Origin: Dromaius novaehollandiae
Taxonomy: Eukaryota; Chordata; Aves; Casuariiformes; Dromaiidae
Assembly: GCF_036370855.1 (NCBI RefSeq)
Contig: NC_088102.1
Location: forward strand, 19,511,001-19,575,000
Length of the DNA: 64,000 nucleotides
Reading direction: 5' to 3'
A program made the translations under genes and the position numbers. The notes beneath the pieces are model-generated. The model was not told where the DNA came from. It saw only the letters and a program-made list of their open reading frames with translations, and ran no database searches. Each line of letters opens with the position of its first letter. Position 1 is the first letter of the stretch. Positions 4,046 through 41,103 of the stretch are shown in pieces.

Positions 4046-4064
4046 TTTTTTTTTTTTTTTTTTT
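4046..4064. repeat. Homopolymer T run
   Basis: Nineteen consecutive T residues in the first full intron. It is a simple repeat and likely to vary in length. Confidence 0.95.
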
Positions 4065-6749: not shown

Positions 6750-8272
<1,523 letters not shown>

Positions 8273-12667: not shown

Positions 12668-12712
12668 CCTGTATATATGTGTGTGTATATTTTTTTATAT
12701 ATGTGTGTGATG
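12668..12712. repeat. TA/TG dinucleotide-rich stretch
   Basis: Mixed TATATG and TGTGTG words separated by a T run. It is an imperfect microsatellite in an intron. Confidence 0.8.
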
Positions 12713-14166: not shown

Positions 14167-14304
14167 ATTGAAAAGTTGCAAAATCAAATTGAAAAAGAGA
14201 AGCAAAGTAATCAAGATCTGGAGACCTTAAGTGAGGAGCTGATAAAAGAGAAAGAACAACTACAAGTCATCATGGAGACTTTGAAAGCCGACAAAGACAG
14301 ACAG
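14167..14304 (+). CDS. CCDC88C: CCDC88C coding exon, coiled coil
   Basis: Residues 212-257, from [16 protein letters not shown] to [11 protein letters not shown]. Coiled coil with the conserved [17 protein letters not shown]. Acceptor TCCACACAG ends at 14166; donor CAG|GTGCAA follows 14304. Length 138 nt, phase 0-0. Confidence 0.96.
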
Positions 14305-16732: not shown

Positions 16733-17478
16733 GTAAGCAAAATAATACTACTATCTTCATCACAGTGCTATTTTTTTCTGCTCTGCCAAGTAGCAAAGGG
16801 AGCCATCTATCCCTTGGCTATTTGATCTATGAATTAGGAGATCTTCAGAGTCTTAGCAGGCATCACAGGATAGCATTGCCTTTTGGATGTAGAACTTGCA
16901 AAAATTAAAACATACCACTCTTTTTGTCTAATTACACTGCTACAGCATAATTACGCTTGTTCAGTTATGCCAGTAATTTTCTCTGTGTCCAAAACTCAGT
17001 CCATAGTAAAAATGCTTAAGTCCCTCAGCAACAAATCTTAACCACGTCATCTCAGGAAACTTGCATATTGAAGCCCTGTCACTTGTGTGTGCACGCGCGC
17101 ATGCACTAAAGTGCAGGCTGGGCTTCTCATATTAGTTGCTGAGGCGGGGAACTCCCTCTGCTGGTGCTGCATCCTCTGGCCTGCACATCCCTTCTGCTGG
17201 CAGGTGAGCAGGATGACAGTGTTGGCAGCAGAAATTCACTACCGTGAGCAAGACAGAGGCCAAAAGAAGCATTCTTCAGTTTCATGTTGAGTAAACTGTA
17301 AATAAAGAGAATCATTTTAATTCTGCACTGAGCTGACACTGAAGAATTTTCACTGACCTTCTTGGGACTAGGATTTTATCCAGTGCCTTTTTTTATACTC
17401 TTTGGTTTAAATATCTCCAGTGCTGGATAATTATCATTGTCCTTTTTACAGCAACTAATCATGTCAGTGCTATTGCAG
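16733..17478 (+). other. CCDC88C intron
   Basis: GT-AG intron of 746 bp ending GTGCTATTGCAG. A short GTGTGTGCACGCGCGCATGC stretch lies near 17085. No gene is seen. Confidence 0.85.
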
Positions 17479-17612
17479 GATTTGGTCTTGGAGAAGCTGA
17501 AGAGTCAACAGTTGTCTAGTGAGCTGGACAAACTGGGCCAGGAACTGGAGAAGATAGGATTGAACAAAGAGCTTCTGCTACAGGATGACAATGGCAATGG
17601 CAGTGATGACAC
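17479..17612 (+). CDS. CCDC88C: CCDC88C coding exon, coiled-coil end / linker
   Basis: Residues 615-658 plus two bases of codon 659, from [17 protein letters not shown] to GNGSDD. The coiled coil breaks at an acidic Gly/Asn/Asp stretch (DDNGNGSDD), a likely flexible hinge also present in Daple homologues. Donor AC|GTGAGG follows 17612. Length 134 nt, phase 0 to 2. Confidence 0.95.
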
Positions 17613-17850
17613 GTGAGGAAACTGAGCTCTCTTACTCATGCTTGTGACTGTGCAGGCTCTCCATCAGACATCCTAATTCAACCCTCTAGCTTAAAGAAGC
17701 CCCTTCTTTTCTGTTATCATCTCCATTCTCACTCCAGTTACCCTTACCAATTTTGAACACACAGCCTATTTTTCTGTAGCAAGCCTGGCAATATCCTGCA
17801 AGGTTTGCAAAACCTTTTCTTGGAAAGAATGAAAGAAGGAAGAAATACCA

Positions 17851-17910
17851 TTCTCTCTCTCTCTCTCTCTCTTTCCCTCTCTCCCTCTCCCTCTCTCCCT
17901 CTCTCCCTCC
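17851..17910. repeat. (CT)n / (CCCTCT)n pyrimidine tract
   Basis: Sixty bases of pure pyrimidine on the plus strand: (TC)n followed by irregular CCCTCTCT units. Confidence 0.95.
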
Positions 17911-18551
17911 ATGCTAGCTAGTATTATCACAGTTCCCTTGTAGAGTCGCTGGGTAACCACCTCAGTGATCCACTGTGTATTTTCCTCCTGGTAGTCTCTT
18001 TAAAAGCAAGAACAACAGTGCCTACCTGTTGTCCTTCAGATGGTGTATGCCAAGACTTGGTGATCCAACCAACTCTTAATGTAAACGTAGATGTTGCCTA
18101 AGAAATTCCTGATGGCAAATCCTATAGTCATTAACAAAGAAAGCCCAACAATCCACATGTGTATAGGCCTCTTGATGAGACCTAGTTAGAGAAACATATG
18201 CTTTTTGGAAAAATTTTAGGGCTTATTGCAGCTTTTTCTCCCCATCAGGAATGTACAGAAGAGACATGAGAAGAAATATCTGTAGTGTAATTAGGGGCAG
18301 AATAGAAAAACTTATTTGCTTTTAAATTATATAGCTTTAAATATTCCTGTAGAGCTATATAGGTATTATTGATTGGATTGGTTGGATTTTCTATAAGCAG
18401 GTTCCTCAGCAATAATCTATCAGCTGTGCACTAGAGGATTCCGTTCCTGAAAAAGCAAATGCATGTAATGTAACGTGATGAGATTTAGAATGAGTGAAGG
18501 CAAAGTCTACTATCTGGATGGTGGCTCATAACCTAGTGGCAGATGTTGGAA

Positions 18552-18553
<2 letters not shown>

Positions 18554-18582
<29 letters not shown>
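18554..18582 (+). repeat. T29 run serving as splice polypyrimidine tract
   Basis: Twenty-nine T residues ending 14 bases before the exon that starts at 18597. They are followed by CTCATGTTTTTTAG. Confidence 0.95.
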
Positions 18583-18596
18583 CTCATGTTTTTTAG

Positions 18597-18738
18597 AAAA
18601 TACAAGATTCTAGAAAGCAAAACTGAATCAGCACTGAAAACAGCAGTAGCTGTGAAAGAGGAAAAGATTGCAGTGCTGGAAGCTCAAGTGAAAGACTCTC
18701 TGAACTTGAACCAGCAGTTACAGAATGAGCTAAATATG
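18597..18738 (+). CDS. CCDC88C: CCDC88C coding exon, coiled coil
   Basis: Completes codon 659 (Thr) and encodes residues 660-706, from KYKILESKTESALKT to QLQNELNM. Helical sequence with MKEEKI-type conservation (VKEEKIAVLEAQVKDS). Acceptor TTTTTTAG ends at 18596; donor ATG|GTAAGA follows 18738. Length 142 nt, phase 2 to 0. Confidence 0.95.
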
Positions 18739-19325
18739 GTAAGAGGTGAACTGCATTTTAAATGTTCTCAATATGTTTTTGCACATTCACGTGCGTTTTG
18801 CTCAACAAGAACAAATTATATGTGTTTCTTTCCTCACCATATACAAGTTCCCTCCAAGGCTGTTTGGTTTGACTGCTTTCTTCTGTCCCATTGTATATAG
18901 TAGTACTGATGTTGGCAAAATTCTTAGGCTGTGGTCCGGGGCAGGAGTTTTTTAAGTAACCACTGTTTGTAACCTCTCTTTCCCCATGTTTGTTTCCTCA
19001 TGCACCATGTTGCATGGTGGTTTTTTCCACTTTCTTCAATGAAAGTATAGGCTGAGGCAAACTGCAGTTGAAACTTCTCACTGAGGATAGCCTGTTTGTT
19101 AGGTGACAGTGAGCTTGAGTCAAGGGCTGGCTGACTGCAGGCCAAGAGACACAGGCTCCTTCACCTGTGTGTGCCTCAGCTTCCCAATCTGTGAAGCAGG
19201 GGTAATAGTTCTTGAATCCCTTTAAATGCTTACAGTGTAAAAGAGGAACTGCATATTACATTATTATTAATATAAAAACCCAGTGTTGAATGAGTTGTAA
19301 AATTTGTTCCTTGTTGGCTTTACAG
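18739..19325 (+). other. CCDC88C intron
   Basis: GT-AG intron of 587 bp ending TTGGCTTTACAG. Open frames running into it from the preceding exon are read-through. Nothing else is seen. Confidence 0.85.
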
Positions 19326-19514
19326 GTGAAGAAGGACTTTGATGCACTCAAACAGACCCAACAGGATGGACAGTGCGCTCAGAATTCACTGAAGTATTCT
19401 GCAGAGAAATTCATTCCCAATCACCAAATGAAGGAGAAATTAGAAACAGGACACCGAGAAGCTACCATGGAGCTTCTGAAACTGAAAGACAGGACAATAG
19501 AATTGGAAAGGAAT
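19326..19514 (+). CDS. CCDC88C: CCDC88C coding exon, interrupted coiled coil
   Basis: Residues 707-769, from VKKDFDALKQTQQDG to LKDRTIELERN. The first half is less helical (QNSLKYSAEKFIPNHQ) and variable in the family. The second half returns to the conserved EATMELLKLKDRTIELERN. Acceptor GCTTTACAG ends at 19325; donor AAT|GTAAGC follows 19514. Length 189 nt, phase 0-0. Confidence 0.95.
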
Positions 19515-19887
19515 GTAAGCCTTCTTGCATTTCCTGTTATCCCTCAAACTTCCCTTGTGACCATGGGTGGATCGCTAGGACCTGTTTTTTCAAGGCTATA
19601 GGAATCTGGTGGGCTTTTTGAGCATTCAAGTCTACCAGATTCCTCAGACATCTCTTATACCATTAGTCTCCTGTGGTCCTATTTGTCTTGTGTAGCATTT
19701 CTATGGGGATGAACCTTGTGTTTAATATCTGTCCTACCTTCCTTTAATGCTGGGAAGAATTTCCTCTTGCACATTAGTTGCAGGAGGATCATCATAATTG
19801 GGTCTCATCTTTGATAGGACTCCAAATGATCAGAACAGCTGTTTCATTTCTTCCTGTTACCTCCCTTCCATCCCATCTGTCTTTTAG
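19515..19887 (+). other. CCDC88C intron
   Basis: GT-AG intron of 373 bp ending CATCTGTCTTTTAG. No feature is recognised. Confidence 0.85.
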
Positions 19888-20049
19888 AATGCTGCCCTGC
19901 ATACTGAGAAGCAGCTGCTTAAAGAACAGCTGAAGCACTTGGAAATGCAGAATGTCTCCTTCAACAATCAGATCCTGACACTACAGAAGCAAAATGTCTT
20001 CCTTCAGGAGCATAACACTGCCCTGCAGACGCAGACAGCCAAGCTCCAG
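19888..20049 (+). CDS. CCDC88C: CCDC88C coding exon, coiled coil
   Basis: Residues 770-823, from [15 protein letters not shown] to LQTQTAKLQ. Gln-rich coiled coil ([19 protein letters not shown]). Acceptor GTCTTTTAG ends at 19887; donor CAG|GTCAGA follows 20049. Length 162 nt, phase 0-0. Confidence 0.96.
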
Positions 20050-21166
20050 GTCAGAACAACCCTGCACCTTTGTGCCAATAGACTGGATTTCATTATGGTA
20101 GTGCGGAGATGACAGCTGACAAGAAAATGGTGGCTGGTGTACTTACATAAAGATGAGGCTCATAAAGAGGAGCTTAGATTGAGATCTGAATTTCTCCAAG
20201 CTAGGGGAGAAATTGGCTCTATAGCTACTATCTGAGTTTATCTTTATGAAGTAGGTAATTATTTGAGGCCAATTTTTAAAATGAACTAATGGTGCAGCAA
20301 AATCTAGATCTGTTGTTCCAGAAGCTGCACTGAAGTAAAAGGTCTTTGCTCTTTTTCTGTTAATGCTGTGTCTGTGAAAGAACTTTGAAGAAATGGGAAT
20401 AGGACATGAGCCAGCTCCCAAGAAACACTGTAGCAATGGGTTCAGATCAGTTTTCAGACTTTCAGACAAAATGTCCAAGTTGCCTATGAAAAGCAGTTAT
20501 TCTTAAATGTCATTTTAATTCTGAAAAAACAAATTTAGCTCAAGAAAGAGAAAAATTTTTAAAGACAAACTTGGATTAGCTGTAGTTTTGATATTGTCTG
20601 AATTCCACTTTCTCCTAGTTTTTCAACCTGCAGTTCACATAGTTTTTTGGTTCTTTTAAATTAATTCTCACCTGAAAGTGAAATAGAGCAACAGCATATA
20701 AAACCAGTGCACAGTACATCTACTGAAATCAAACTTGTTAGGAATGCTGCCCCCACACACAGTGGTGCAGTTCATTCTGTTGTGTTTAGATGAACTTAAC
20801 AAGTTTTCATTCAGTTATACACAAGCATGGAGCAACTTTGGCTTTTGTACATGATGTCAGAGCTATAGTTGGGTTGCCAGTATTCCAGCTCACCATAGTC
20901 TTCAGTCTGAAGACTATCTGCTAGCATAACAGTGTCGTTAGTTTGGCGGTTATCCTGATGAATTTCAGACCCTTGCTAGCAAGACTTTGTGTGGTGTGTA
21001 TTACTATGCTGAAATGATGCCAAAGTGTCCATAAATGTCTTAAGTCTAAAAAGTTATAGATGTATGCTTGACTAATTGTATGCAGATATAAACTGTTATT
21101 ACATGTTTGTTATATGTACTGGTAAGTGTAAATAAATATGCTTGCTTTTTATTTGAGAAACTTTAG
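20050..21166 (+). other. CCDC88C intron
   Basis: GT-AG intron of 1117 bp ending GAGAAACTTTAG. No gene or mobile element is recognised. Confidence 0.85.
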
Positions 21167-21444
21167 GTAGAAAATTCAACCCTCAGCTCCCAGAGTGCTT
21201 CACTGATGGCCCAGAATGCTTTACTGCAAAATCAGCAGACAGCCAAGGAGAATGAGAATGAAACTCTACTGAAACAGAAGGAGCAGTTAAAAGCTCAATA
21301 TGAGTCATTGCTTCAGGATCATGAACATCTTGCTTCACTGCATGAGCGACAGTCCACAGAATATGAAATGCTAATAAACCAGCACAGCTGCCTGAAAACA
21401 TTACACAAAAACCTGGATCTGGAGCATAAAGATCTTGGTGAGAG
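21167..21444 (+). CDS. CCDC88C: CCDC88C coding exon, coiled coil
   Basis: Residues 824-915 plus two bases of codon 916, from [14 protein letters not shown] to LEHKDLGE. The conserved block [18 protein letters not shown] is followed by [19 protein letters not shown], close to human Daple. Donor AG|GTATGC follows 21444. Length 278 nt, phase 0 to 2. Confidence 0.96.
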
Positions 21445-24400
21445 GTATGCTCACTGTTCAGTGCCTAGGGAAGTTGCATAGCCAAAATGTTAGTCTTAAA
21501 CTTTGATCTCCAATTGTAAACAAAAGTTACTATTTTATTATAGTAAGGTGTTATCTTGACAAGGTGTCTTCTCATTTTTGTTGTCATTAGGAGATTAGAT
21601 GAAAATACTTGAAAATCTGTGTATTTCAGACCTGTGAACGTTGCAGACCATGGATGACTCTTGATTTTTAGCAAACAGGGTCTTGGGGAATACACTGTCA
21701 GAAGTAGCTTAAAGGCCTTTACTATGTTTGAGGCTCTAGGCTGTAATAACACATATCCTTAAAAAGATTTTCCCAGTCCTACTGTGTGATCTGTTTTCTT
21801 GTCATACAATAAGATCTGTAAGTCAGCTAATTAATTACCTAAGTGTGAGTCATATGGGGAAACAATATAAATCATTGATGATTTTGTGTGGCATCACCTA
21901 TATGGCCTAAGAGGCTGTCTGACGGAAGCCACCTTGAGCCAGATGTGAAATAGTGATGTATTATTTATTTCCTTCTAGTTCTCACAATCTAAGGCGTTTG
22001 TTTCAGGACTTTCAGTTGAACTGTGAAATCGGATTAATCAATTTATTGTTTAGTTTCTAGTCAGTGTCATTTTCTGACAATTGTGCTCGAGTGAAACAGT
22101 ATAAATAATATACTACTACATAAAGGCCACTCTGCCTACCCATCAGAACTTTTTTTTTTAACCATTTTACCGTTATTTTCCCCCAAATACCTAGTTTTTA
22201 GGTTGAGTTTCTATGGGCTGGGTCAATGGTCAAGAGCAAGGGTCTGAGTTGGGTCAATGGTAAAGGGCATGTCAATGGTGATCTTTGAGGGTGGACTAAA
22301 AAGTGGTGCTAAACTTTCCCAAACCCAAAGGAGCTGGCAGTACAGTGTGCAGTAGATTTTGATAAAGTACAGAACTAAATCTATTGTGATGAAAATATCC
22401 ACCGAGGCTGCTTGACAGGACAGCTGCTTGGCTGTCAACTAAATAATGAGCTGTAAGTGATTACAGACACTGTTCATGCTTACCAAGTAGACTCGGACTG
22501 ATTAATGGTTGTCACTGATGCAGGCTTTGCTTAAGAATATCACACTGCGGTGTGTAGGTGCAGTTTGCTGGGTTCCTTCTTTTCTTAATGAGTACCACTT
22601 ATTAAACAGTTGTAGCACAAGAAAACAATGGCTTTCTGAAAAATAGGTTCTCTCTAGTGATAAGTGCTCAGACCACTATTGTGAACACTAACGATTTGGA
22701 TCCTCTCTTACTGAGGTGTGACTGCCAGTGAGAAATGTTGCAGGGGAGCAGATGTTGATCTTTTGTATATGCTGAGCAGGTTGATTTTTGGCAGTTCTGA
22801 GAGCGCAGCGTCCTCCTCAGCAGGTCGGTCTGGAAGATGCTTGTCAAGGTGACTTGTCCAAGGACAGCCTGTGTCTCCATTTGACTGTTAGGGGCGGGGG
22901 GAGGAAGAGAGAGAAATTACCACCACCACCACCCCCATGTGCTATCTATATTCAGCTTGCTGGGAAGGGCAGAGGGGAGTAAGTTTGAAAAGCATCTGGA
23001 AGAGACCTGTTTGTTTTCTTCTGTCACTCAGTGCCATTTAGGTGCTAAGATGAAATCTCTCACCTTCAGCTAGAATACACCACCCACTAAATGTTCCCAG
23101 AACAGCTGAGGACAGCTGAGCAGCCGGCTTGTGCAGTGTGAGCAAGATGGGCTTTGCTTGTCCCAGACTCCAAAGCAGTCTGTTTTTCTCCGTTGGTGAC
23201 AGCATGTTTAATCATAGTTCTGTTGCTTATGGCAGGACTGCACTCCTGCAGAAACCTGTGATTGCAGCTTGTATAGAAAAATCCATAGCAACTTTAGTTA
23301 GCTTGTGGCCTGCTAATGCTCTGTGCAGCCAGGATCCCTAAGGTTTGTGCAGCTCAGTGATGCCTGTGATACCACAGAATGTTTTCTGCACCTGAGTAAA
23401 CTTCATTAAACCTCCCTCAACTATATCTGCATAGTCTTAGTACTGCACTGTGGATTTAATAATAGGTTGTGTGTAACTGTAGTGAAATGGCCTGTCATAG
23501 CCCAGCAAACCACAGACATGTGGGTTTGACTTAGCAAGAAAAGGAAAGTTGGTATGTTGGAGCCATTTACTGTTAACAGCAGTTTCTTTACTCTGTGGTG
23601 TTTGATTGGCTGCCTCAGTTAACAGAGGAAAGCTGGGCTCTTCTGCCTGCATTTTTAAATTGCTTTAAATATTGCATGTTACTAAGAGGAGATGATAACT
23701 TACTAGCTACGGCTGTTTGGCAGAGCCTTGAGCAGTTCTTTGTGATTTGTTCTGAACAACTCTGTAATCCTGCACAAACACTGGAAAAACTCATCCCACT
23801 GGAAAAAGAGAAGACCTGCTGTGCAGGGTTACATATTGCAGCAGTTGCATTATTACGTTAGCAGTGCTGTCTGGGAATCATATTTATGGATTCCTTCTGC
23901 CATATGCTTCCTATCATAGTTGAACATTTTTAAAATTTTCTGTCACAAATATCTACCCGCGGTATCTCTCTAAACAGAGCAGCAGAAGGGGTGAAAGCCA
24001 AAAACCACAGTTGGAACAGGAGTAAAGAGGAATATGGCTGTTCAAGTCAGAAATGGATTGCATCAGAGCCAAAATGTATTTTATTTGCCTCTATAAGGAA
24101 ATATTTATAAAAACCCTCTTCCCATTTGCTTGGGGCTAATGCTAAAGAAATGGAGTGAGCATGAATGTTGAGTAGCCTGTGGGTTGGGTAACCTTGCCCA
24201 TTGGTAAAGCCTCTCCTTGCAGTGGTATGCTCGTGCTCATCAGGTTGTGTAAATCCTGCTCAAATGGTAGCCTCCCTGATGAATCCAGACAACAAGTGAA
24301 TTTTACTTAGGGATTTCACGAGGGCTCTGGTGATGCAGGATCCATCTGCATTCTTGCAGACAATCTCAAATTTCATATCTATCCCCTAATGTTTAAGGGA

Positions 24401-26218
24401 GCAGCTCTGGTCCACCACAGGAGTTCCCATGCTCGAAGGCAGCATGGGGAGCTGGGCCAACTGGTAAAACTGGACCAGTATGCTGCTTCCTTCTAAGTAG
24501 TCCTCATTAAAAATAATCGGAAGCCTTGGGTTGGGTAAAAATGAACAGAGGAGCCTTATCAAAGGGAAATGATGAAAGCATTTCCAACAGTGTTTCTACA
24601 GAGAAGGCCAAGGTAATCTCTGCCAAGGTATTGACTGTGGAGTTTGTCTTCTCAAACTTTGGATTGGCACACAGTCTTGTTTGAAAATCCTTCTGGGAGC
24701 TGGTTGTGAAACCTTCCTCTGCTTTCAGGTTCTTCTATTTGTTGTACAGACATTGAATTTGAAATGTTCGGGAGCTGAATTAAGGAAGAAAACAAATAAA
24801 TAGGGTTAATTAAACTCCACTGCTACCACTGGGAATGAATAGTAAAAAGCAGTTTTTGTCTGGGAGACAGGTATTTTTCTGTGTGGCCATTCAATGGACT
24901 GGAATTTGGGACAGGCTGTAATATGACTCTGGGATGAAGGGAATGGTAGCCTGAAAGAAAAACAAGTTGGCAGGAGCCAATGTACTTGGTGCTTTCTGCT
25001 GCGTTTCTTTTCGTTTTGAAGTTTCTGTGGCTGCAGAGTGACTGTCTGCTCTGCATTCATCTCTGCTAAGACAAGTCAGCAGTGGCTGGTGGGACAGGTG
25101 CAGACGATGTTTGTTATAACTTTTTCAAGCATTGCTGTGTCTTCTGTTGGATTGTGGTTTTAAAATTGCTTAAAATGAGTCTTCTGTGAGTGGCATAGAT
25201 TTCTCTGCCCAGGCATATTTCAGGGCAGTATCCTTTTATCACTGTCACAGACAAATGTGCTGGTGAGTTTGACCTTCTCTGCTGCAGTGTCCGCAGTTGT
25301 TTCTGCTAGTTGTATGGGTGGGTGCAGCCTCTGACAGAGACCACCAGAGGAGAAAATCTTCAGAGAACAGCTTGCTGTTTTACCAAGTGGCCTCAACCCA
25401 CCTCGTGCTGTGCGCCGTTTTCTGAACACAGGCACAGTAGCCACTCAGGGAAGCTGAGCCCACCTAACCTATTCCTGTGCCAGGTATCAGCAAAGTTGTG
25501 CCACCGTTGCTGCTATTTTAGAAAATTTAAAATATAGTTGAAAGCCTCTGCCCTCTCTCTCTGCCCCAGTCCCTGCTGTCAATGACTTGCACGCAAATTG
25601 AATAAGCCAGGTAACAGAGCCCTGTCCCATCGAGGCCCAGGCACAAACACCTGTGCTGCCCTTGGATCTCTCACTGGTGAACAAGCAGTGGGGTCAGCCT
25701 CTGCTTGTGGGTGCTTCACTGTCACCTCTTCCTGATACTGTCCTTGTTGTCTGTCTGGAGTATGCAGGAGGTAAAGTTCATTTCACTGGGGTGTTTTTTT
25801 TGCTTTTTGGTTGCTTCTTTCTGCTTTTAAGTCATCTTGAAACCTGCCACTGATGATTATTTATGAACAAGAACCCAGTTAAATGATGCAGTTTCTCTCC
25901 ACCTTGGGGACTCAAGTACTTTCTATCAAATGATCAGGATCTGAAAATGAAATAAAGTTCTGACAATTGCATTCCAATTTCTTTTCGTTTTTGTCTTTCC
26001 CCTAAAAAACCTCTGGGCTTACAGATTAAACTGAGTTCTATCCACACTGGAATTCTTCAGTCTCAGTGGATTTTTAACCACACAAATCTGTACAAAACTG
26101 AACAGATGGAAAATAAACTCACTTTTGATGGTTGTAGTTTCATCTATTAAAATAATCTTCAATTAGAAGAAGAAAAGTGCATGAATGAAAGCTAAGTGTG
26201 CTTACTCTTCTCTTGTAG
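21445..26218 (+). other. CCDC88C intron (4.8 kb)
   Basis: GT-AG intron ending CTTCTCTTGTAG. It contains a short triplicated GTCAATGGT-type motif at 22220-22280. Several 60-90 codon open frames (for example 23595-23861 plus) have no recognisable homology and no matching splice phase. No mobile element is confidently recognised. Confidence 0.8.
22220..22280 (+). repeat. Imperfect short tandem motif (GGGTCAATGG)
   Basis: GGGTCAATGGT occurs at 22220-22230 and 22251-22261, each followed by a similar A-rich GGCA/AGCA segment. A third partial GTCAATGGT lies at 22271. Confidence 0.8.
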
Positions 26219-26362
26219 ATACAACAGTTTAATGAAACATAAGGCAGAACTGGAAGAGCTGGAAGTAGTTTTAAAAACTGAGAGAGAGGTTCTGCAACAA
26301 GAAAGGAAAACAAATGCAATAACCACTGGGGAAAATCAGAAGCTGAGGGAGGAACTTGACAG
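26219..26362 (+). CDS. CCDC88C: CCDC88C coding exon, coiled coil
   Basis: Completes codon 916 (Arg) and encodes residues 917-963 plus two bases of 964, from YNSLMKHKAELEELE to KLREELD. The heptad pattern continues (VVLKTEREVLQQERKT). Acceptor TCTCTTGTAG ends at 26218; donor AG|GTATGG follows 26362. Length 144 nt, phase 2-2. Confidence 0.95.
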
Positions 26363-27766
26363 GTATGGCACCCTTGCCAAATTCTTGTATATATCATTAA
26401 AAAGTCAATTATGCAAAATACACGGTAGTTTTGCTCTGTTGTGTTACTACAGCTTCAGGATATCTGTTCATTTCTTCCAACATCAATTTTATTAATTTGG
26501 TTGTTTTGTTTAACTCATTGTAGATAATCAGCTTCATGGACACTGTCAACAAATGTTGTTCAGTGCTTCAGACATGGTCTGATTCTAGGACTTTTGCTCA
26601 TTCAAGATCAACTGCCACTTGTGGTTCAGTTCACAAGCTGTATGTTTCTACAATCATTTGTTTACAAGAGCTTGTCTTAAGTAGAACTACAAATACCCAA
26701 GACTCACCAAAATCTCGAGTTGTGTGAAATGATTCCTACCCAATTTTCCTCTCATAAGGAACACTGTATTATGTCTTTTACACAATATGCTTTAATTCTT
26801 GGAATTAGTGTTGCTGTTTATTCATGCTAAAACCCTTTAGTAAGCTACCCTCCAAAGTTTAAATAACACAACAGTAAAACATAACACCCTCTCGCACACC
26901 CCCACTGGGGTACTCATGGTTATGATCAGTTCAGTGCCCCTGTTCATATTATGGAGATGTTTTGAGAAAAAGTTTGGAACAAATAAGGTGCTACGGTCAT
27001 GACAAGTACAAACAATGTCGGATTGAATCACGTTTAAAAATCACCTGTTAAGTTTGGTCACAAAAGTTTCTTATACTCTCCTATTATAATGTACTTTGGA
27101 GCACTGCAGCTTTGCAGACAAGGTTTCCTCAGGCTTGCTGTTTTTGACCTGAGTCTTTTTTCTAATGATGAGAAGGGAAGGTGGTGTTGCAAAATGTTAA
27201 TTGTAGTGTTGGAAGAGGAGAAGGCTTAGCTGATCTGTCAGCAGATACAGGATTTAGTCTTTTCTATTTATATGTTTGTGTAACTTCAGGAATAGTAGTT
27301 GTTTTTAGATTTACCAAAAGCTTTAAAAGAATCCTACAGCATCATCTTATAACATTACAGTATCTTACAGTGCAGGACACACTAATGCTCGTATTTCATG
27401 CATCAGAAAAATAATTTTCTGAGTATTCTTCCTTGTGCCAAATAGAGCTGGCTTTATATCAAATGCTCTTAAATGCATTGTGCCTCAGAAATTTGTAACA
27501 TCCTGCACATTGAGGAAGTATCAAACATGTTCCATCTATTTTCCTTTTAATTCTGTTGTAGATCTGGTATATTTTATAATGCTGTTACTGCTTCTCTATA
27601 ACATTTTATTATCTGCTCAGTAATAAATTTAAAAATGTTTAGAAATTAGTCTTTGGAACTTAATTTTAGATTTAGTGACAGCTGCACTCTGATGGTGTGA
27701 CCTCTTGAATGTGAGGTACTTTCTATGAAGTATTCTTCATAAGCCTGCTTCCTTCTTCATGTTTAG
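26363..27766 (+). other. CCDC88C intron
   Basis: GT-AG intron of 1404 bp ending CTTCATGTTTAG. AT-rich, with no recognisable feature. Confidence 0.85.
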
Positions 27767-27953
27767 GGTGAATTTCTTGCACAGCCAACTAAAGGCAGAG
27801 TATGAAGGGCTGCATTCACACACTAAAGAGCTGAAAACTTCCTTGAACAACTCTCAACTAGAGCTGAATCGTTGGCAGGCTCGCTACGATGAGCTGAAAG
27901 AACAGCACCAGTCCATGGATCTCTCTCTGACTAAGCTGGATAACCACTGTGAG
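27767..27953 (+). CDS. CCDC88C: CCDC88C coding exon, coiled coil
   Basis: Completes codon 964 (Arg) and encodes residues 965-1026, from [15 protein letters not shown] to LTKLDNHCE. It contains the near-invariant family stretch [19 protein letters not shown]. Acceptor TTCATGTTTAG ends at 27766; donor GAG|GTGAGT follows 27953. Length 187 nt, phase 2 to 0. Confidence 0.97.
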
Positions 27954-31221
<3,268 letters not shown>

Positions 31222-31463
31222 GAAAAACCACTGGATTGGAGCCAGAGCCTTAGTCAAATTAATCAAGCCAAAGAAAGAGGCTACAAGGGAGCGGTTGAAG
31301 CCATCAGTAGAGAGTTCTCCATGGCATTCTGAATCCCCAGAAACAGTTGCCTCTCCATCCGTCTCCCAAAAACTGAAACATCAGCAAGACAGTCAGGATA
31401 ACACATCTCAAGGGTCAAACTCCATGGAAGAGAGAGAGACCCATGGGAGTTCTTCAAACAAAG
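31222..31463 (+). CDS. CCDC88C: CCDC88C coding exon, basic membrane-proximal segment
   Basis: Completes codon 1105 (Lys) and encodes residues 1106-1185 plus one base of 1186. It opens with the basic block KNHWIGARALVKLIKPKKE, which corresponds to the phosphoinositide-binding region described in Girdin, and continues into a Ser/Pro/Gln-rich disordered tail. Acceptor TTTATCAG ends at 31221; donor G|GTAAGA follows 31463. Length 242 nt, phase 2 to 1. Its phase-1 end fits both the normal next exon (35194) and the alternative terminal exon (32874). Confidence 0.96.
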
Positions 31464-32288
31464 GTAAGAGATACCCAGCTTAAATTCACAGGCTGAACAG
31501 TTTATTTCTTGGAAAGGTTTAATATATAGAACATGTTGATACTCCATTCCTTTTTATATCCCTTTTTTAGTAAACTAGTGTTTTATTTTTTCTTTTCATC
31601 TATTTTATGACCCTTTTGCTTTTGTATATGAATGTATTGAATGTTACTGAATAAATCTGTGGAAGTATTTCATTTACAGTGGCTTTGCAGCAAAGCAGTT
31701 TATAGCTGGTCCAGATAATTTTACCCATTTGAAGAATAGATGTTAATGAACCGTAATAGCTGGTCCTACAGCCACTGCCAGGAGATGGCGCACATAGAAA
31801 AGAAACAACTTTGAAAATGCTAATTTATTATAATCACTAACTTTTTTGGTGATTGATACAGTGTTTTGACCTGGAATTGAATTAAGAATTTTAAATCTAA
31901 AATGCAGAAATGATTTTTTTAGAACACTGTAAGAGGAACATAATGAAGATGAAATGATTCTTTCTGTTTTGGCAGAGTTGGTTTATACAGTAAATCAGGT
32001 GTCCCTAATTACAGGAAATTAAAAAAAAAAAAAGTTCTTCAGAATAAAAAAAAAACTGTGGTCTTTACTGAAGATAAAATATATCCCAAGCTTCACATAT
32101 TCTGTTGCGATCACTCCTGTCAGTTTCTCTATATAACTTTTTGTCCTCTAGGAATATTTTTCAAGAAGTTGTTTTGAATTTAGTCCTTAAGTAAGAATTT
32201 GTTTCTCAGTGGGAAGTGGCAGGGGATAGCAGAGGATTGAGCAGTTGAGGATAAACTGTTGTTATCTCCAAGTGTCTGTTTGGTTTAA

Positions 32289-32310
32289 TTGTTTGTTTGT
32301 TTGTTTGTTT
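32289..32310. repeat. (GTTT)n microsatellite
   Basis: About five GTTT units followed by a T-rich stretch. Confidence 0.9.
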
Positions 32311-32873
32311 CATTTTTTTTTATTCCTCTTTCTCTGTTCTATTTCTTCAAGATCTTTGAATCACTTAGAATAAAATGCATGTCTTAAATCATCCATGCAA
32401 TTCCAGGAGATGTTAAATGTGCTCAGCATGCATCCAGAGTTCCCATCTGGGAATACGGGATCACGTTTCCCCAGAACCAGGCCCTGACTAAGTGCCAGAG
32501 ATAGCGGAAATTTCTCTGGGGGCTTCATTGTTTTTGATTTTATGTAGAACATGCTTATGTTGAGAATGATAAGTATCAGTATTAAAGCCTAGAAGACATC
32601 AAGGAAACTTGAATATATACTAAGTAACATACTTTTTTTAAAATAAAAATGTATTTGGGGAGTTCTTACAGTTAGTTCTCAATGAATTTGCTTATATTTA
32701 TTGTACCAAGTGTTAATCTGAGCCTGCTAAGTATGCATTAGTCTTTGTTTAGCCTTTTTATTTTTCACCGATTGTATTCTCTTTATCTGTTTTTAAAATG
32801 TTTAAGTTTCATTTACAATTTCCCCCCCTTTTTTTCTTCTTCTTTTTGTGATACCTGGGTGATAACAATTTAG

Positions 32874-33049
32874 CTGTGCAACGCAAAAAGATTGCCTTTT
32901 TGAGAAGCAAAATCAAGGATAAAGAAAAGAGTCCTAAGTCTCCATCGAATCATCAGTCTCTCTCTAATCGACTCCGGTTCTGGTCATCCTCCGACATCCC
33001 ATCCTCTCCTAATGAACCTCTTTCTTTCTCGGAATTGGGAGATTTCTAA
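32874..33049 (+). CDS. CCDC88C: CCDC88C candidate alternative last coding exon (truncated isoform)
   Basis: A long pyrimidine tract (about 32819-32848) and acceptor AACAATTTAG precede an open frame that continues the phase-1 codon of the exon ending at 31463. It runs 58 codons (AVQRKKIAFLRSKIKDKEK... to FSELGDF) and stops at TAA 33047-33049. Visible coding from 423 would then total 3732 nt, exactly 1244 codons including stop. There is no convincing internal donor, and AATAAA follows at 33173, so a terminal exon is the best reading. The basic start resembles Girdin (FLRNRPKDKDK, recalled). The isoform would keep the coiled coil but lack the GBA motif and the C-terminal PDZ ligand. It has no ATG of its own, so it depends on splicing from upstream. 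Expression cannot be shown here. Confidence 0.68.
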
Positions 33050-33200
33050 CACCTTTTCTTTAGCATTTATCTTCATTTATTTCTGACAAGTATTTTAAAC
33101 AAAAGAATCCCACGTACCTTAAAAGAACGCACACCTTATAGGAAACACTCAGCATGTCTTTACAATACTCTAAATAAAAGCACAGATTAGTGAACATGGA
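33050..33200 (+). promoter_or_regulatory. 3' UTR and poly(A) signal of the alternative last exon
   Basis: A canonical AATAAA at 33173-33178 lies 124 bases after the TAA at 33047-33049. A moderately T/G-containing stretch follows. This placement is typical of a short terminal-exon UTR. Confidence 0.6.
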
Positions 33201-35193
33201 CTTAAGTTTTCCTGTAGAAGATGAATCATTATTGCACACTGTGGATCATTTCTTCAATGCAGCACACTTAGGGGACCTCATGGCATACAGTTTGCGTATG
33301 TATATTGGCTGCGGTGCATGTTATAAGTAAGTGAAGTTGCTATGCGCTTCAATATTTTCTTGCAATCACATACTTGCATCATGTCCAGTTAAGTGTTGAA
33401 CTGGCCTGCTGTTGCTATGCTTTCTACAGTGTTCTGGTCCTGCTAAAATACAAACCTAACATATAAGCCCTTTCAAATACTGGAGAAGTTTCCAATATTC
33501 CGTGCAGCTAAATGTAAAAATGCCAATTCTTTTAACATCTTTCTCTGCTTTCAAATAGTCTAGCTATGAATATAGAGTGGAAGCTACTGGGAAGATTATT
33601 CTCCACAAGGTGTTTTGATATTTGAATTCTAACCTGGTATTTAGAGAGGTTTTACAACTTCAGCTATGAAAATTCATCTTGGATTGGGCATAAGGCTTAA
33701 GTTTTTCTGTTCTGATTTTGAGAGGGTGTTTTTTAGAAGAGGAAGAATAAATTTGTTCTCTTAAAACTGGGAATAACCTGCATCATGGATCTATTGCCCA
33801 GAACAGTTATTGCCTGGTAGCCTGAAACGAATGTGCAGCTTCAGTCCCCTCTCAGTGTTGGAGAAGCGTACGTATGCCAGGCAGTACATTCACAGGGGTG
33901 CTCAGTGGAGAGACTAGGGAACCTCACCTCCCTTCTGACTCTGAGAAGTGGTCCCTCCATGGCATGACCAAGGACGCTGGCACAGCAGCCTATTACTGCC
34001 TATTTTTGGATTTGTAGACATTGTCTATCTCAAGGGCAGTTAACACATTCCACAGATGCCAGATCAGTTGCGTCTTCAAAGTCAATTAGAAATACAGACT
34101 GTCAAAGCCAAGCTTTAGCCTGTAATTGCCACTAGAAGAGCACTGTAAATCTCAATGCTGTGAGAGAGTGCAGGCCTTGTGCTATGGGGCTCACACAGAC
34201 TGTAGCAGAAGATGTTTCTGAAGCACGTTTCCAAGAGTCATCTAAGTCAACAGTAACTTGGTCCATTTTCTCTAATACTGCTTTGCCGCTGCTTTGTGCT
34301 TCAAACTAACTGTTTGGCTTTTGTTTCTGCAAGTTGTTTATTTTGACCACTGTGCTCTGCTTGTTTTCAGCATTTAATTACTATTAATTACACATGTTCT
34401 TCAAATATATAGGAAACTAGTATCTTGCATCTCATTAAGGCTGTTTCCTATAGTAAATTCTTTAAATTTTCTTCTATTTTGTGTGTGCCTTCAACTGTTA
34501 GATACAAACTGAAGAAATTAATCTGCCTTATCACTAGGGAAGATTTCTTCAGCTTCCTAAATTTAAATAATATTCTAGCAGGTAATTTTTGTTGCTCTCC
34601 TGCTAAGGGCCCAGGAATTCCACCTAAAAATCATTGCAGCAAAGCCATCATAAGAGCAGCAGAGTTTTAACCCTGTAGAGAATGAGTTCTTATCACAGCA
34701 AAGATGTAAAGTTGAAAGCAATTTGCTTAGTATGTCAACCATATTAGATAATTTCCAAATCAGGACTATTTCTCTTTGAGTAAGAGTGTGACTTTTGTTA
34801 CTGTTTCCTTAATCTATTTAATTCCTGAAGTAAGTGCTTATAAAATGTGCCTGCAAGGAACAATGTTAAAGAAATTTCACACCTCAGTTATTTTTTCTGC
34901 ATTCACATCTTTGTTCCTTTTCTTCCTCCTTTCATGGTAGCTGTTGCATGTATAATATCAACCTTCCCACTGGCACTAAGCAGCCCTTGTCACTCCCACA
35001 CCTTACAGAGAGCACACATGATTGAAAAACTGGTGGCAGAAATTTCCTACCCAATACTGAATGGAAGAGCTTGCAAAAGTAGCGCCTCTGTTGTGCAGTT
35101 TTTTTGTGCCTGCTTGTCATGTTTATATGGGTGGATAAATACAAGTCTCCTTATGCTATTTGTCATTTACTCATTTACCTCTCCCTCCCTCAG

Positions 35194-35376
35194 CACTAGT
35201 GGACCTAAAGCAAAAGAGGAGTTCCCATCATGGAGGCAGCAATGATAATGTTGAAATCTCAGCAGACTCTGCAGCAAAGCACTGCTGTGCAGAGCTGGGT
35301 TCCAGGACTTACTCTACCTCAGCTATTCACTTGCACACTTCCACCCCCATCTCCAGGCTCCAGAGCAGACCAAAAG
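35194..35376 (+). CDS. CCDC88C: CCDC88C coding exon, disordered tail
   Basis: Completes codon 1186 (Ala) and encodes residues 1187-1246 plus one base of 1247, from LVDLKQKRSSHHGG to RLQSRPK. Low-complexity Ser/Thr/His-rich tail. Family anchors are DLK(P/Q)KRGS-like and ELGSRT(C/Y)STSA. Acceptor CTCCCTCAG ends at 35193; donor G|GTACGT follows 35376. Length 183 nt, phase 1-1, so it could be skipped in frame. Confidence 0.93.
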
Positions 35377-35785
35377 GTACGTGTTGCATTCGATCGACCA
35401 GTTTGTACAAATCGGACTACTTTGTAGTTCCCGCCTGGGTGAAACATGGCTTTTAGTGGAAGTCAAGTACAAATGACAAAGCAAAGGAGTATTTTTGCTC
35501 CTGCTTTATCTCCTCAATGGTTTAATTGATCAGATACAGGATTTCCTTACTCTGGTAATGCTGTCAACTTGAGAGACTATGTTAGGGTATATTAGTCAGT
35601 TCTCCCTGGTCTCCTGCCCAGTGATTTATAGCGGTGGTTGGAGGACGGCTGCTCTTCTAGTACTGGCTCTATAAACCCACTCAATCACTTGAGTCACTTA
35701 CACTGCGAGAATTTGTGGAGACTGACCTGAAGGATTGACCTTCTTGTGTTTAATATTGCCTGTTTAAGTTTTGTGTTCTTTCTAG
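35377..35785 (+). other. CCDC88C intron
   Basis: GT-AG intron of 409 bp ending GTGTTCTTTCTAG. No feature is seen. Confidence 0.85.
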
Positions 35786-35854
35786 GCTATAATTCAGAAG
35801 ATAATCTATGTGAGCAGTCCCCTGAGGTAGAGTTTGCAAGCACCAGGCAACATG
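35786..35854 (+). CDS. CCDC88C: CCDC88C small coding exon
   Basis: Completes codon 1247 (Gly) and encodes residues 1248-1269 plus one base: YNSEDNLCEQSPEVEF then ASTRQH. YNS(D/E)DNLCEPS is a Daple-specific anchor. Acceptor TTCTTTCTAG ends at 35785; donor G|GTAAGT follows 35854. Length 69 nt, phase 1-1. Too short for ordinary open-frame detection. Confidence 0.93.
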
Positions 35855-36538
35855 GTAAGTTTGAAGCATTAAGAATGCTCTAACTTGCTACATTAAGACT
35901 TGTTTTATTACATCCAGGTGACCTGTCCTAGAGCATTTTAGTTAAATAAACATGACAGAATGAGATGTAATAACACAAAAGCATTTTGGGAAAGTGAACC
36001 TAAATAGTTTATTTTTCTCCCAAGAAGCTTTTAATGGATGTTTCCCCAAAATAAATTTTCAAAAATAATGCTGATGTTGAAACAAATTGACTTGCCACAG
36101 CAAAAGCTGCTTTAATGCATGTCCTACGGATTTGATGCTTATTTTTCCAAACAAAGTTTAATTTCTTCCCAAAGGCAGTGAATCAGCAATAAAAGATTTG
36201 GCGGGGGGAGAAGGACGGGACACAAACAGTGGCACAGCAGTACTGTTCTGTGTATAGTTGATTTAGAAGCAAAATGCAGAGCATAATTCTTTGTGCAAAA
36301 AATATGAGTGAGAAAATGAGGTGTTCCTGAACAGCTGACTTAAAAAATGAGAATGATTTCTATTGTTTCTATTTCTTTGCTATCCTGTGTATATTACATT
36401 TGCCATCCTGTGCGTATTACGTTGTTGATGTTTCCGAAGTGACTTAGGTCCTGTTTTCAGAGGCTGGCCATAGACAAGTCTTTCAGAAAATTAAAGAAAC
36501 TCAAGCTCTGCTTGTTAAATGCTAGTTTTCTTTTCCAG
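35855..36538 (+). other. CCDC88C intron
   Basis: GT-AG intron of 684 bp ending TTTTCTTTTCCAG. It contains an imperfect duplicated segment at about 36380-36423. No gene is seen. Confidence 0.85.
36380..36423. repeat. Imperfect ~22-bp tandem duplication
   Basis: Two adjacent copies of a sequence of the type ATCCTGTGYRTATTAC, differing at a few positions. Confidence 0.75.
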
Positions 36539-36607
36539 TGTCCAGGCCAAACAGTTCAGAGAGCAGTAGAAACGCGTCCAGCAGTAGCTCACCCCTCAAC
36601 TTGAAAG
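36539..36607 (+). CDS. CCDC88C: CCDC88C small Ser-rich coding exon
   Basis: Completes a Val codon and encodes SRPNSSESSRNASS then SSSPLNLK plus one base, up to residue 1292. It matches Daple SRPSSLESSRN...SSPLNLKGSS. Acceptor TTTTCCAG ends at 36538; donor G|GTAAAG follows 36607. Length 69 nt, phase 1-1. Confidence 0.94.
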
Positions 36608-37394: not shown

Positions 37395-37696
37395 GTTCCT
37401 CAGACCATATCCATGGTAGAACTGAGAGCCTCAGCAGTGAAGATATGGTGTCAAGCAGAGAGGCAGCAGCCTTGCTCCGAGACAACTATTCCTTTCACTC
37501 TGCTTTGGCCATCTTAGGCCCTAGCAGCAGGCCTGAGTCCTCCTTCCACAGGAATGGCTCAACCTCTTACGAAATACCTCAGAAGATTGCTCCTGCCCAG
37601 CCTTACACAGGCAGGCAACGGTCTGCCTCACCTGGCAGTGAGATGGTAACTTTGGAAGAGTTCCTGGAAGAGAGCAACAGGCTATCCCCACCAAGC
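37395..37696 (+). CDS. CCDC88C: CCDC88C coding exon carrying the GBA motif
   Basis: Residues 1293-1393, from GSSDHIHGRTESLSS to EESNRLSPPS. The G-alpha binding and activating motif sits near the end: core V-T-L-E-E-F-L at 37646-37666 within SEMVTLEEFLEESNR. The phenylalanine (TTC 37661-37663, residue 1382 of the visible chain) is equivalent to the one essential for G-alpha-i binding in Daple and Girdin. Upstream is Ser/Arg-rich disordered sequence (GRQRSASPGS). Acceptor CTCCTCAG ends at 37394; donor AGC|GTAAGT follows 37696. Length 302 nt, phase 1 to 0. Confidence 0.97.
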
Positions 37697-40089
37697 GTAA
37701 GTAAATAGAGCTAGATAATCCATCTCCAGATGCCACAAAACTGTTCAGAACTGGCTTGGGGGGATGAGGGCATAAGCAAGCTAGGAAATACCCGTGGAAC
37801 TTGGAGAGCAATCAAATTTTGCAAATCAATAATTCAATGAATGAAGCTGTTGCAAGAACTAAGATTAACTTTTACACAGCACACTTAATATATTTTGCTA
37901 TATTGCCTATAGCAGGTCAGGTAATTCATTGCAATTAATATATATTGGACTGCTGGGGCTTCTTGAAATCAAAGAGTTCTTTGTGATTAAGCTTTTCTAC
38001 TATGTCACCAGTTCTGAGCTCCAGGTATATTAATTTGTGAACTGGTAAGCTTTCTGCGTGTTTTTCTATAGAATTAATCTGAAGTCACAGAGCTCTCAGC
38101 TGCAGTTTTCAGCCTATTATATCTGTAATTAGAAATGAAAACTAACAGTAATTTTCAGCTGAAGTAAAAAATATGCAGGTTTTAAAAACATGTCCTGATC
38201 AGAAAATACTGTTGTCACATTTGGGATAGTATTTTCCTTTCTGAAGGACATTCCCAGTGCTTTCCCCATACCGTGTGTTTGTGTGCTGATTGGCACTGTT
38301 CTTTTGGCTCAATGGCTGCAAGAATACACCACACTCTGAAGTGCTTTGTTAGAAATGAAATGTTTGTTTTTTAGGTGGCATTTGTCACTTACTGCTTAGA
38401 CATGCTGTTTAGTAGTAAAGTGGTGCAGCATCAATCATGTTAATGTCTTAAAGCCAATTCATTGATGGTGTAAGCAGACAATGTTCCTGTTTCATGAATG
38501 CCTCAGTAGCAGTATTGAAATCAACAGAGCTGTAGCATGTTATGATGTTAGTGACTTCTCCTACTGCCATGTTATCCTAAGTATGTTTTTTAGCTCTTAG
38601 ACATGTTTAATATTTGATTTTTTTGTCTGTAACTAGCTGACCATATCTTCATTTTCATTCTTTCTGTCATCCTTGTTCCTTTTCAGTGTCGACGCAGTTT
38701 AAATGAGAATGAAATGATTTCATTGCACCAATTTCTGTTAGAAGCTGATGCACTGTATCCCTCTTGCCACTCCCTATGTCCTTCCCTCCGTCAGGAGCCT
38801 TCACAGTCACTCGAATCGGTCCTCAGTCATTCATGTCCTGACAGCGTGAGGCACAGAACAGGCAGGGGAAACAGGAGATCTACTTCACTGTATATCCCCA
38901 GGGTATCCGTTGTTCTTGCTATGAAGGCAACTGCTCCCAACTTACCGCAGCTTTTGCTAGCATATTAATACCTATAGAAAGTGTATTGTAACTCTTGGCT
39001 GTCACTTCAGAGACTAAGGCTGCCAGATCACTTGCATTAATTGCTCATAATTTCCAATGCTTGTTCATAAACATAATGTTTTTTGAGGATTAGTAATTCT
39101 GTAATGTTATTGGGCACAACAGCAGTTTAAAATAAAAATATCCTAACACTTTAACCTTTAGTTGAGCATAGAAATTTTCTAGCTCTGTTTTAACCACTGT
39201 TACCACTGATAGTGTTCACTTCTAACAAATGAGTTTTGTGACTGGAAAAAACTTCTGGAACTCAAATGAATATATTAAGCCTTAGCATACTCCCTAGAGA
39301 AGAGGAGAGAGATAAATTTCATGAGCTTGTTTCAGCACATTATTCATACAGACAGCTTGCCCTTTAACTATTCCCAGCATGCCTCATACTAATAGTCAGT
39401 GGCAGATGGTTTGCATGGACCATCCCCATGAAACTTTCATTGTACATTTTCTTTTACAGCCAGGATAATTGTCTGACTTTGAAATTTTCAAGTTAATTCT
39501 GGGCAAGCGATCGTTTCTCCATTTTTTTGTAACTACTTTTTGTATATTTCAGTGTATTGTACATGCAGCCTTTAACAGATGTACTATATTGACCATGAGA
39601 GCTGAGGGGAATGAAGGGAGAAGCAGTTAATCTTTCTTGCAATGCTAGCACATTATTAGGTATTCTCTTACATCCCTGATGTTACAGTAGAGTGTTATCC
39701 AGAGGAATTGCATCCTTGAAAATGACAGGCCATCATTGATACCTGCTGATACTAATGGCTGATGTCAAAGGAAGCAAAAGAGCTGCTGCCCAGGTTGCTA
39801 CTGAGATGAATTTTTTTTTAATTTATGACAATTAATCTGGCAAACAAGGCTGTCACAATCTAATTATGATGAGCCTGTAACTTTGATTTGGATATATATC
39901 CATTTTAAGCATTTTTATCTTCTGTATCCAGCTTTTAGATATAAAATCCATGGTTCTATTTGGTCTTTAGGGTCCCTCTGTACAAATGAATGGGAAAGAA
40001 AATTGTTTGACCACAAATCTCTGTGTAATTTGTAATTCTTTACACAAAAATTGTCATTAATGTGTCATTTGCATATTTTCTCACACCAG
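37697..40089 (+). other. CCDC88C intron containing a candidate cassette exon
   Basis: GT-AG intron of 2393 bp ending TTTTCTCACACCAG. It contains the candidate second GBA-like exon at 38687-38845, described separately. The rest is AT-rich with no recognised gene or mobile element. Confidence 0.85.
38687..38845 (+). CDS. CCDC88C: CCDC88C candidate cassette exon with second GBA-like motif
   Basis: A very strong acceptor (pyrimidine tract at about 38648-38684, TTTTCAG) opens a phase-0 frame directly compatible with the GBA exon's phase-0 donor. It encodes CRRSLNENEMISLHQFLLEAD then ALYPS and continues in Ser/Pro/Leu-rich sequence to CPDS, where AGC|GTGAGG (donor at 38846) would give 53 codons, phase 0-0, in frame with the last exon. 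EMISLHQFLLEADALYP aligns with the known motif EMVTLEEFLEESNRLSP and fits the GBA pattern hydrophobic-S/T-hydrophobic-x-(D/E/Q)-F-hydrophobic. The human sequence I recall goes directly from the GBA exon to the last exon, so this is optional. If the donor is not used, the frame runs on to a TGA-free stop region ending at 38968 and AATAAA at 39131, making a terminal exon. Confidence 0.62.
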
Positions 40090-41103
40090 GACACCTCCAG
40101 TAGCAGAGATGATTTTCTGAGTGATTATTTTAGGAAACCAAATGAGCCTTCAGCTACCGGAAACCTGCTGGTTCATTTGTCCAGAAAGGAGGCTGCTAAG
40201 ATGCCCACTAGTCATGTTTCTCCAACTGTAAAGATGACCATTGCCAATGAAGAAGGAAGAATGTCTAAGCCTGGGAATTATGTGAAGCCAAATCTCAAAC
40301 AAGTTGAACCTGAGCCTCTTACAAACTCCCAGGGATCCCTTAAGCTTCCTCACACACCACAGCACCAGTCTGTTGGTGGGATGCGGCAGATGGCACAACC
40401 GCAACAGCCTGGAACCACAAGCCGAAGGAGCACATCATTGAGCAGGGCATTTAGCTTAGCCTCTGCAGACCTCCTTAGAGCCACTGGCCCAGAGACATAC
40501 AGGCAGGAGAGCCCCCAGAAGTCAGCAGCAGACCTGTGTGGAGGCAAGGACACTGTCAGTCAGGCCTCTAGGGTTTCTGTGCCAACCAGCTCCCAGGCAA
40601 CCTTAAGAGAGAGACCACAGTCTGCAAAGGTGGCAGGTTCCTTGCAAGGTATTGAGTCTCGTTGTCGGCAGCTTGATGTGAGACGCCTTTCCCTAGCCCC
40701 ACCGAAAGACGAGAGGCCGCTCTCCTTCCATCAGTTTTCTGCCTCACCCACTGCCTCCACCAGCAATCTGAATGTGCAGCAACAGGAGCGAGTGAATCCT
40801 GGGCAACACTACTCATCTGCACCACACACTCACTCTAAAGTCAAGCCCAAGTCAGCCCCTTGTTCTGGAGAGGTGGTCACAGTGACCCCTGCCAGAGCTG
40901 TTCCCAGTAGCACTGAAGGAAATACCTCTGTGGAACAAGACCAGGGGGATGCCCTCCACACCAAGTGCCAGGGTAAGCTGCCAGAATGCAACAGTGGGGC
41001 TATGGAGGAGCCTCTGAGAGGAAGTGGCTCCAACAGCGCTCCTGGTTCTCCGGACCCCCAGGGGGATCAGCAGACAGTTTGGTATGAGTATGGGTGTGTG
41101 TAA
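40090..41103 (+). CDS. CCDC88C: CCDC88C last coding exon, PDZ-binding C-terminus
   Basis: Residues 1394-1730 and stop TAA at 41101-41103, from DTSSSRDDFLSDYFRK to VWYEYGCV. It is a long Ser/Pro/Gln-rich disordered tail with conserved islands: DDFLSDYFRK, KMPTSHVSPTVKM, a basic SRRSTSLSRAFSLASADLLR island (about 40420-40482), RRLSLAPPKDERP, and SGEVVTVTPARA. The final Gly-Cys-Val is the Daple PDZ ligand for Dishevelled and is absent from Girdin. The acceptor CTCACACCAG ends at 40089. The upstream ATG at 40051 lies in the intron and is not a start. Confidence 0.98.
   Translation, partial: DTSSSRDDFLSDYFRKPNEPSATGNLLVHLSRKEAAKMPTSHVSPTVKMTIANEEGRMSKPGNYVKPNLKQVEPEPLTNSQGSLKLPHTPQHQSVGGMRQMAQPQQPGTTSRRSTSLSRAFSLASADLLRATGPETYRQESPQKSAADLCGGKDTVSQASRVSVPTSSQATLRERPQSAKVAGSLQGIESRCRQLDVRRLSLAPPKDERPLSFHQFSASPTASTSNLNVQQQERVNPGQHYSSAPHTHSKVKPKSAPCSGEVVTVTPARAVPSSTEGNTSVEQDQGDALHTKCQGKLPECNSGAMEEPLRGSGSNSAPGSPDPQGDQQTVWYEYGCV

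Follow-up and report, generated by a model that had tools for sequence, protein, structure and literature searches.

The window (the whole stretch of 64,000 nucleotides of emu DNA analysed here) contains the 3' half of CCDC88C (Daple), from which 22 coding exons were assembled (Table 1). The assembled Daple has 1783 residues with the candidate exon described below (in a 53-aa form) and 1730 without it; both forms are open and their splice phases agree. Its alignment with public emu isoform X2 (P0002), the top match among the homologues listed, has no mismatches in 1802 aligned columns and 19 gap columns. As far as this protein goes, the DNA is that of emu or cannot be told apart from it.

The first assembled exon is closed by a GC donor (GCAAGT, 581-582), which gives a GC-AG intron. 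A 46-aa exon (IEKLQ...DRQ, 14167-14304) and a 23-aa exon (VSRPN...NLK, 36539-36607) are optional in bird models. One intronic open stretch (32852-33046, KIAFLRSKIKDKEKSPKSPSNHQSL...) looks protein-like but has no seven-residue words in common with the Daple proteins compared.

Table 1. Features of the CCDC88C locus, with positions counted from the first nucleotide of the window
Feature	Position	Strand	Evidence
19 upstream Daple coding exons	423..36607	+	Exon assembly; comparison with P0002
Exon with the known GBA motif (GBA1, EMVTLEEFLEESNRLSP)	37395..37696	+	Match to the Girdin peptide of PDB 6mhf, E 4.3e-6
Optional CCDC88C/Daple coding exon, phase 0-0, 72 aa	38687..38902	+	Present in public emu isoform X2
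53-aa exon form through the inner donor AGC/GTGAGG	38687..38845	+	Turtle models P0032, P0076
Second GBA-like motif, GBA2 (EMISLHQFLLEADALYPS)	38711..38764	+	Profile match to GBA1; conservation
36-aa exon form through the inner acceptor CAG/GAG, without GBA2	38795..38902	+	Five non-emu models
Conserved exon tail NRRSTSLYIPR	38870..38902	+	Mean pairwise identity 0.74
Read-through extension to TAA (38966-38968), AATAAA at 39131	38903..38968	+	Tinamou model P0075
Last coding exon, end ...TVWYEYGCV	40090..41103	+	Exon assembly

Boundaries and splice forms of the optional exon

An earlier note on this DNA had pointed out an open phase 0-0 segment between the GBA exon and the last exon, and this observation was confirmed. 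The segment (38687-38845) has 53 open in-frame residues, among them EMISLHQFLLEADALYP. The GBA1 exon ends in phase 0, the last exon starts in phase 0, and the inclusion and skip forms are both open. Position 38845 was rejected as the main 3' boundary for the emu isoform: the insert of P0002 reads CRRSLNENEMISLHQFLLEADALYPSCHSLCPSLRQEPSQSLESVLSHSCPDSVRHRTGRGNRRSTSLYIPR, followed by the last exon, and maps to 38687-38902, the 19 gap-column residues being the part of the exon beyond 38845. The GTGAGG donor that the note had placed at 38845 is that of two turtle models (P0032 and P0076, the inner-donor users among the 90 listed proteins that include GBA2), whereas emu P0002 uses the donor after 38902. 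In the 90 inclusion proteins among the matches listed, the codon at the inner donor is V in 39, M in 34, L in 6, E in 1 and unreadable in 10. Since codons for M, L or E cannot supply the GT, this donor is not universal in birds.

Splice sites were scored with a simple home-made matrix and compared with 21 other acceptors and 19 scored donors of the gene (the 20th, the GC donor, is not scorable with the matrix). The acceptor of the candidate exon, which had been called excellent, scores 5.19 and is good rather than outstanding (range of the others, -1.9 to 7.4). The inner donor (4.66) is near the bottom of the range of scored donors (4.4 to 11.7) and the outer donor, AGG/GTATCC, scores 2.07, under all 19. 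The inner acceptor at 38795 scores 5.81 in emu. No emu gene model with the 53-aa or the 36-aa form was seen among the homologues listed.

The homologue set comprises 120 proteins listed of 400 found at E up to 10; they represent 90%-identity clusters and are predicted models. In these 120, GBA2 is present in 90, a 36-aa insert in 5, and the exon is skipped in 25; the 30 proteins of the last two classes have no GBA2 segment at all. Carriers of GBA2 among the matches listed are birds, turtles, alligator, marsupials, frogs, newts and coelacanth. The 36-residue inserts, which start at the inner acceptor and exclude GBA2, are found in P0090, P0091, P0096, P0099 and P0117 (among the matches listed). 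Two isoforms of one gull species (P0006 and P0104) have the 72-aa block as their sole difference of more than five residues, and two sparrow proteins (P0050 and P0115) differ by this block and by the 23-aa block of another exon. Inclusion and skipping within one species, with the frame kept, are what defines an alternative cassette exon, and the proposal of a cassette exon is supported by these predicted models.

Some single models depart from this scheme. Tinamou model P0075 reads through the outer donor to a stop, ends in the peptide equivalent to the emu read-through and loses the PDZ-binding end. In emu, read-through to the TAA would give a putative alternative last exon that lacks the C-terminal PDZ-binding end. 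As the main form it was rejected, and it is kept as a minor variant represented by this one model. Hoatzin model P0078 has a frame change inside the exon tail. In tortoise model P0087 the GBA1 exon is missing and the GBA2 exon is extended at its 5' end, possibly a form in which GBA2 would replace GBA1, possibly a model error; mutually exclusive use of GBA1 and GBA2 was set aside, one tortoise model being too little. The intron stretch directly before the emu exon (38633-38686) contains no in-frame stop and is similar to the 5' extension seen in P0087. Frog protein P0097 has both motifs of the Daple type, and one source names it Girdin; the label looks wrong.

There is no placental, squamate or ray-finned fish among the names of the 90 inclusion-type proteins (120 listed of 400). 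The protein names, taken from 90%-identity clusters, hint that the GBA2 exon is missing in these groups, through loss or later gain. Searches with the marsupial and the coelacanth exon as queries returned three and six proteins, respectively. The marsupial query missed flycatcher P0033, although EMISLQQFLLEAD is shared, so neither exon search is a valid negative.

Likeness of GBA2 to GBA1 and its conservation

Apart from the GBA segment's match to itself, GBA2 gave the highest score against that segment among 38,590 stop-free 22-residue segments from six frames (37, the next being 28), and a score of 37 was reached in 7 of 20,000 shuffles of the 72 exon residues. A loose GBA pattern occurs at three sites in the six frames of the window: GBA1, GBA2 and an intronic site at 35697. 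Alignment of 13 GBA2 rows with 10 GBA1 rows using hhalign gave a probability of 93.5 and E 2.3e-7 over 21 columns. With the nine Daple-only GBA1 rows (without Girdin) the values were 92.5 and 4.9e-7. These E-values apply to one pairwise comparison over 21 columns, and the 10-row profile, which includes Girdin, has an alligator row that is wrong at the first two columns. Against 177,635 PDB sequences the GBA2 profile had a single match at E up to 10, the Girdin GBA peptide 6mhf, which is marginal (E 0.12); the 10-row GBA1 profile found 6mhf at 6.7e-14, then seven unrelated-looking matches from 0.066 up. The single 53-aa emu exon gave no PDB match at E up to 10, and a Pfam scan of this exon, the GBA exon and the last exon gave no family at E up to 1.

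The GBA core pattern is hydrophobic-[S/T]-hydrophobic-x-[D/E/Q]-F-hydrophobic. It is found in emu (ISLHQFL) and in 86 of the 90 listed inclusion proteins, the four exceptions (with FP) all being hoatzin models. The Phe, which is part of the search pattern, is present in all 90.

GBA1 and GBA2 belong to the same protein and have a common core, E-M-x-x-L-x-x-F-L-x-E, to which L at F+7 and P at F+9 can be added in emu; GBA2, however, sits on an optional exon. It carries Ser where GBA1 has Thr and Gln where GBA1 has Glu (88 of 90 each, among the matches listed), and further L for E at F+2, A for S at F+4 and D for N at F+5. These residues are consistent in the 90 listed inclusion proteins (L in 89, A in 88, D in 87). 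At F+4 the two remaining GBA2 copies have V, whereas GBA1 has S in 84 and T in 5 of 89 (among the matches listed). In two frog models the motif is ELITLQEFLLEAD, which shares its T and E with GBA1. With the GBA motif of GIV/Girdin (PDB 6mhf chain C) GBA2 has in common the Gln before Phe; unlike it, GBA2 has no S1689-type residue and no Ser-Pro before the core. Upstream of GBA2, R-x-x-S occurs in 50 of the 90 listed proteins, R-x-S in 29 more and neither in 11.

Tandem motifs in one isoform, as had been suggested, are found in the predicted models, with a Phe-to-Phe spacing of 27 in 79 of 89 and 26 in 10 of 89 (among the matches listed). Simple duplication of the whole GBA1 exon was rejected as an origin for GBA2 (phases 1-0 against 0-0, and no DNA repeat joining both motifs reported). 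Given the different phases and absence of DNA similarity, the likeness might be convergent. AlphaFold run on the exon alone as a single sequence places a helix, at low confidence, at residues 13-23 (pLDDT near 60; mean 53.8).

Conservation was assessed in 12 lineages (emu, chicken, thrush, alligator, terrapin, coelacanth, two newts, two frogs and two marsupials); a 13th row, a soft-shell turtle with the inner-donor form, was not counted. GBA1 has a mean pairwise identity of 0.86 and GBA2 one of 0.80, while the linker after GBA2 has 0.35, the exon tail 0.74 and the start of the last exon 0.70; the eight residues that precede GBA2 reach 0.44 and a 30-residue upstream block 0.37. In the same lineages the most conserved 18-residue window of the exon is GBA2 itself, in which 9 of 18 columns are invariant, compared with 5 of 11 in the tail. 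Within GBA2 the identity ranges from 0.20 (the residue before I) and 0.41 (H/Q/T before Q) to 1.00 (I, L, F, L and the E's). The tail NRRSTSLYIPR, kept from coelacanth to birds, looks like a basic phosphosite segment and is not GBA-like.

In the 90 listed inclusion proteins E, I, L, F and the following E are unchanged; the pattern that picked them required most of the conserved residues, and a looser pattern returned the same 90. No segment-bearing protein fell outside the pattern (120 listed of 400). The S/T position is S in 88 and T in 2, the Q/E position Q in 88 and E in 2, and L follows F in 86 (P in the four hoatzin models); two opossum models have K before I. Such a pattern would suit a short docking helix that has been under selection ever since coelacanths and tetrapods diverged.

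Possible functions of the second GBA-like motif

Human Daple is not known to have more than one GBA motif, as the earlier note had stated. This agrees with a review that describes a single motif in Daple (PMC10943482). The GBA motif inserts as an amphipathic helix into the groove between switch II and alpha-3 of GDP-bound G-alpha-i and displaces G-beta-gamma (PMC10943482, PMC5561080, PMC5454376). The Phe is needed for binding by GBA1 (F1675 in Daple, F1685 in GIV; PMC4484057). GIV 1671-1696 binds about as well as longer protein, and residues 1690-1696 add to binding (PMC5561080); residue-by-residue binding scans of the GIV motif exist (PMC5454376). Phosphorylation of GIV at S1674 raises and at S1689 lowers Gi activation (PMC8376251).

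Splice control of signalling modules has a parallel in GIV-L, a long GIV isoform with a PDZ-binding end: as in Daple, 3' splicing sets the modules, but GIV-L toggles the PDZ-binding end whereas Daple toggles a GBA-type motif and, in one tinamou model, the PDZ-binding end as well (PMC8042451). Daple-V2 and other human Daple transcripts are isoforms of the same gene; the human C-terminal isoforms come from unique 5' ends, unlike the splicing of the GBA2 exon, and the passages on these isoforms make no mention of a second GBA motif (PMC6702192). No paper on a second or tandem Daple GBA motif, or on such an exon, was found among the titles listed from the open-access literature. As an exon it is not new, since it is already included in public gene models; as a G-alpha-binding motif GBA2 would be new if it bound G-alpha.

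We consider that GBA2 is probably an ancient, splice-controlled second G-alpha-i-binding motif, lacking the serine by which PKC inactivates the motif of GIV. Its putative amphipathic helix (with L, F and L on one face) would dock on GDP-bound G-alpha-i in the switch II/alpha-3 groove, like GBA1. Inclusion of the exon would then provide the flexible Daple tail with two docking helices and would raise, or alter the control of, local G-beta-gamma release. Because F+4 is Ala and not the Ser whose phosphorylation inhibits GIV, GBA2 is predicted to escape that off switch. The Phe-to-Phe spacing is about one GBA footprint, so two G-alpha-i molecules might either sit next to each other or compete. By use of the inner acceptor, by skipping or by read-through, cells would be able to dispense with GBA2 or the PDZ-binding end at the level of splicing.

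In favour of this explanation we count the presence of GBA2 in 90 of the 120 proteins listed of 400, its conservation relative to the linker (0.80 vs 0.35) and the match to the GBA1 profile. Against it we count the marginal PDB match (E 0.12), the departures from GBA1 at F+2, F+4 and F+5 (the last of which opens the binding-adding stretch equivalent to GIV 1690-1696; PMC5561080), the very variable residue before I (0.20), the hoatzin FP for FL, the opossum K before I, and the difference in exon phases (1-0 for GBA1 vs 0-0) with no DNA similarity.

The consistent differences at F+2, F+4 and F+5 in the 90 listed proteins would also suit a tuned G-alpha binder (weaker, with another choice of subunit, or without exchange activity), inclusion of which would buffer or compete with GBA1 and add nothing. 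The action of DAPLE and GIV as GDIs on non-Gi/o proteins, reported in a review (PMC10943482), points the same way. This reading is nevertheless unlikely: the core hydrophobic and Phe positions are kept in GBA2, and two frog models carry T and E at core positions like GBA1.

Slightly less likely is that GBA2 forms a conserved short helix which binds some protein that is not G-alpha, with a likeness to GBA1 that is convergent or dates from an old duplication followed by a change of partner. The motif is short, has no DNA similarity to the GBA exon and lies in an exon of different phases, its PDB profile match is marginal, and the second conserved block, NRRSTSLYIPR, implies further constraints on the exon; however, the invariant columns of GBA2 are the ones that GBA motifs retain, and the GBA1 profile is matched at E 2.3e-7 to 4.9e-7. 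That GBA2 is an intronic frame open by chance, or noise in the gene models, is barely credible: the splice sites are middling, with a weak outer donor (2.07), the gene models are computer predictions and a further loose-pattern site lies in the intron at 35697, but GBA2 is present and open in 90 of the 120 proteins listed of 400, with carriers that range from coelacanth to birds, and conservation is focused on the motif; such cross-species conservation is strongly against noise.

If GBA2 is indeed a second G-alpha-i-binding motif, a broader proposal can be made, which we advance tentatively. Lobe-finned vertebrates may have inherited a Daple with two tandem G-alpha-i-binding motifs, one constitutive and with the GIV-type PKC off-switch serine, the other spliced and without it. 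Splicing would then determine how many receptor-independent G-protein activators act at cell junctions and whether they have an off switch, and placentals would have lost the second motif.

Signalling through the GBA motif of Daple has been credited with neural tube bending in Xenopus and zebrafish (PMC10943482), and two frog gene models (P0092 and P0097) carry the second motif. If GBA2 binds G proteins, a second activator may persist in such animals when GBA1 alone is disabled, and studies of human Daple would overlook one component of the system. The natural isoforms would also provide a clean test, since the same protein carries either one motif or two, and just one of these has the inhibitory phosphosite.
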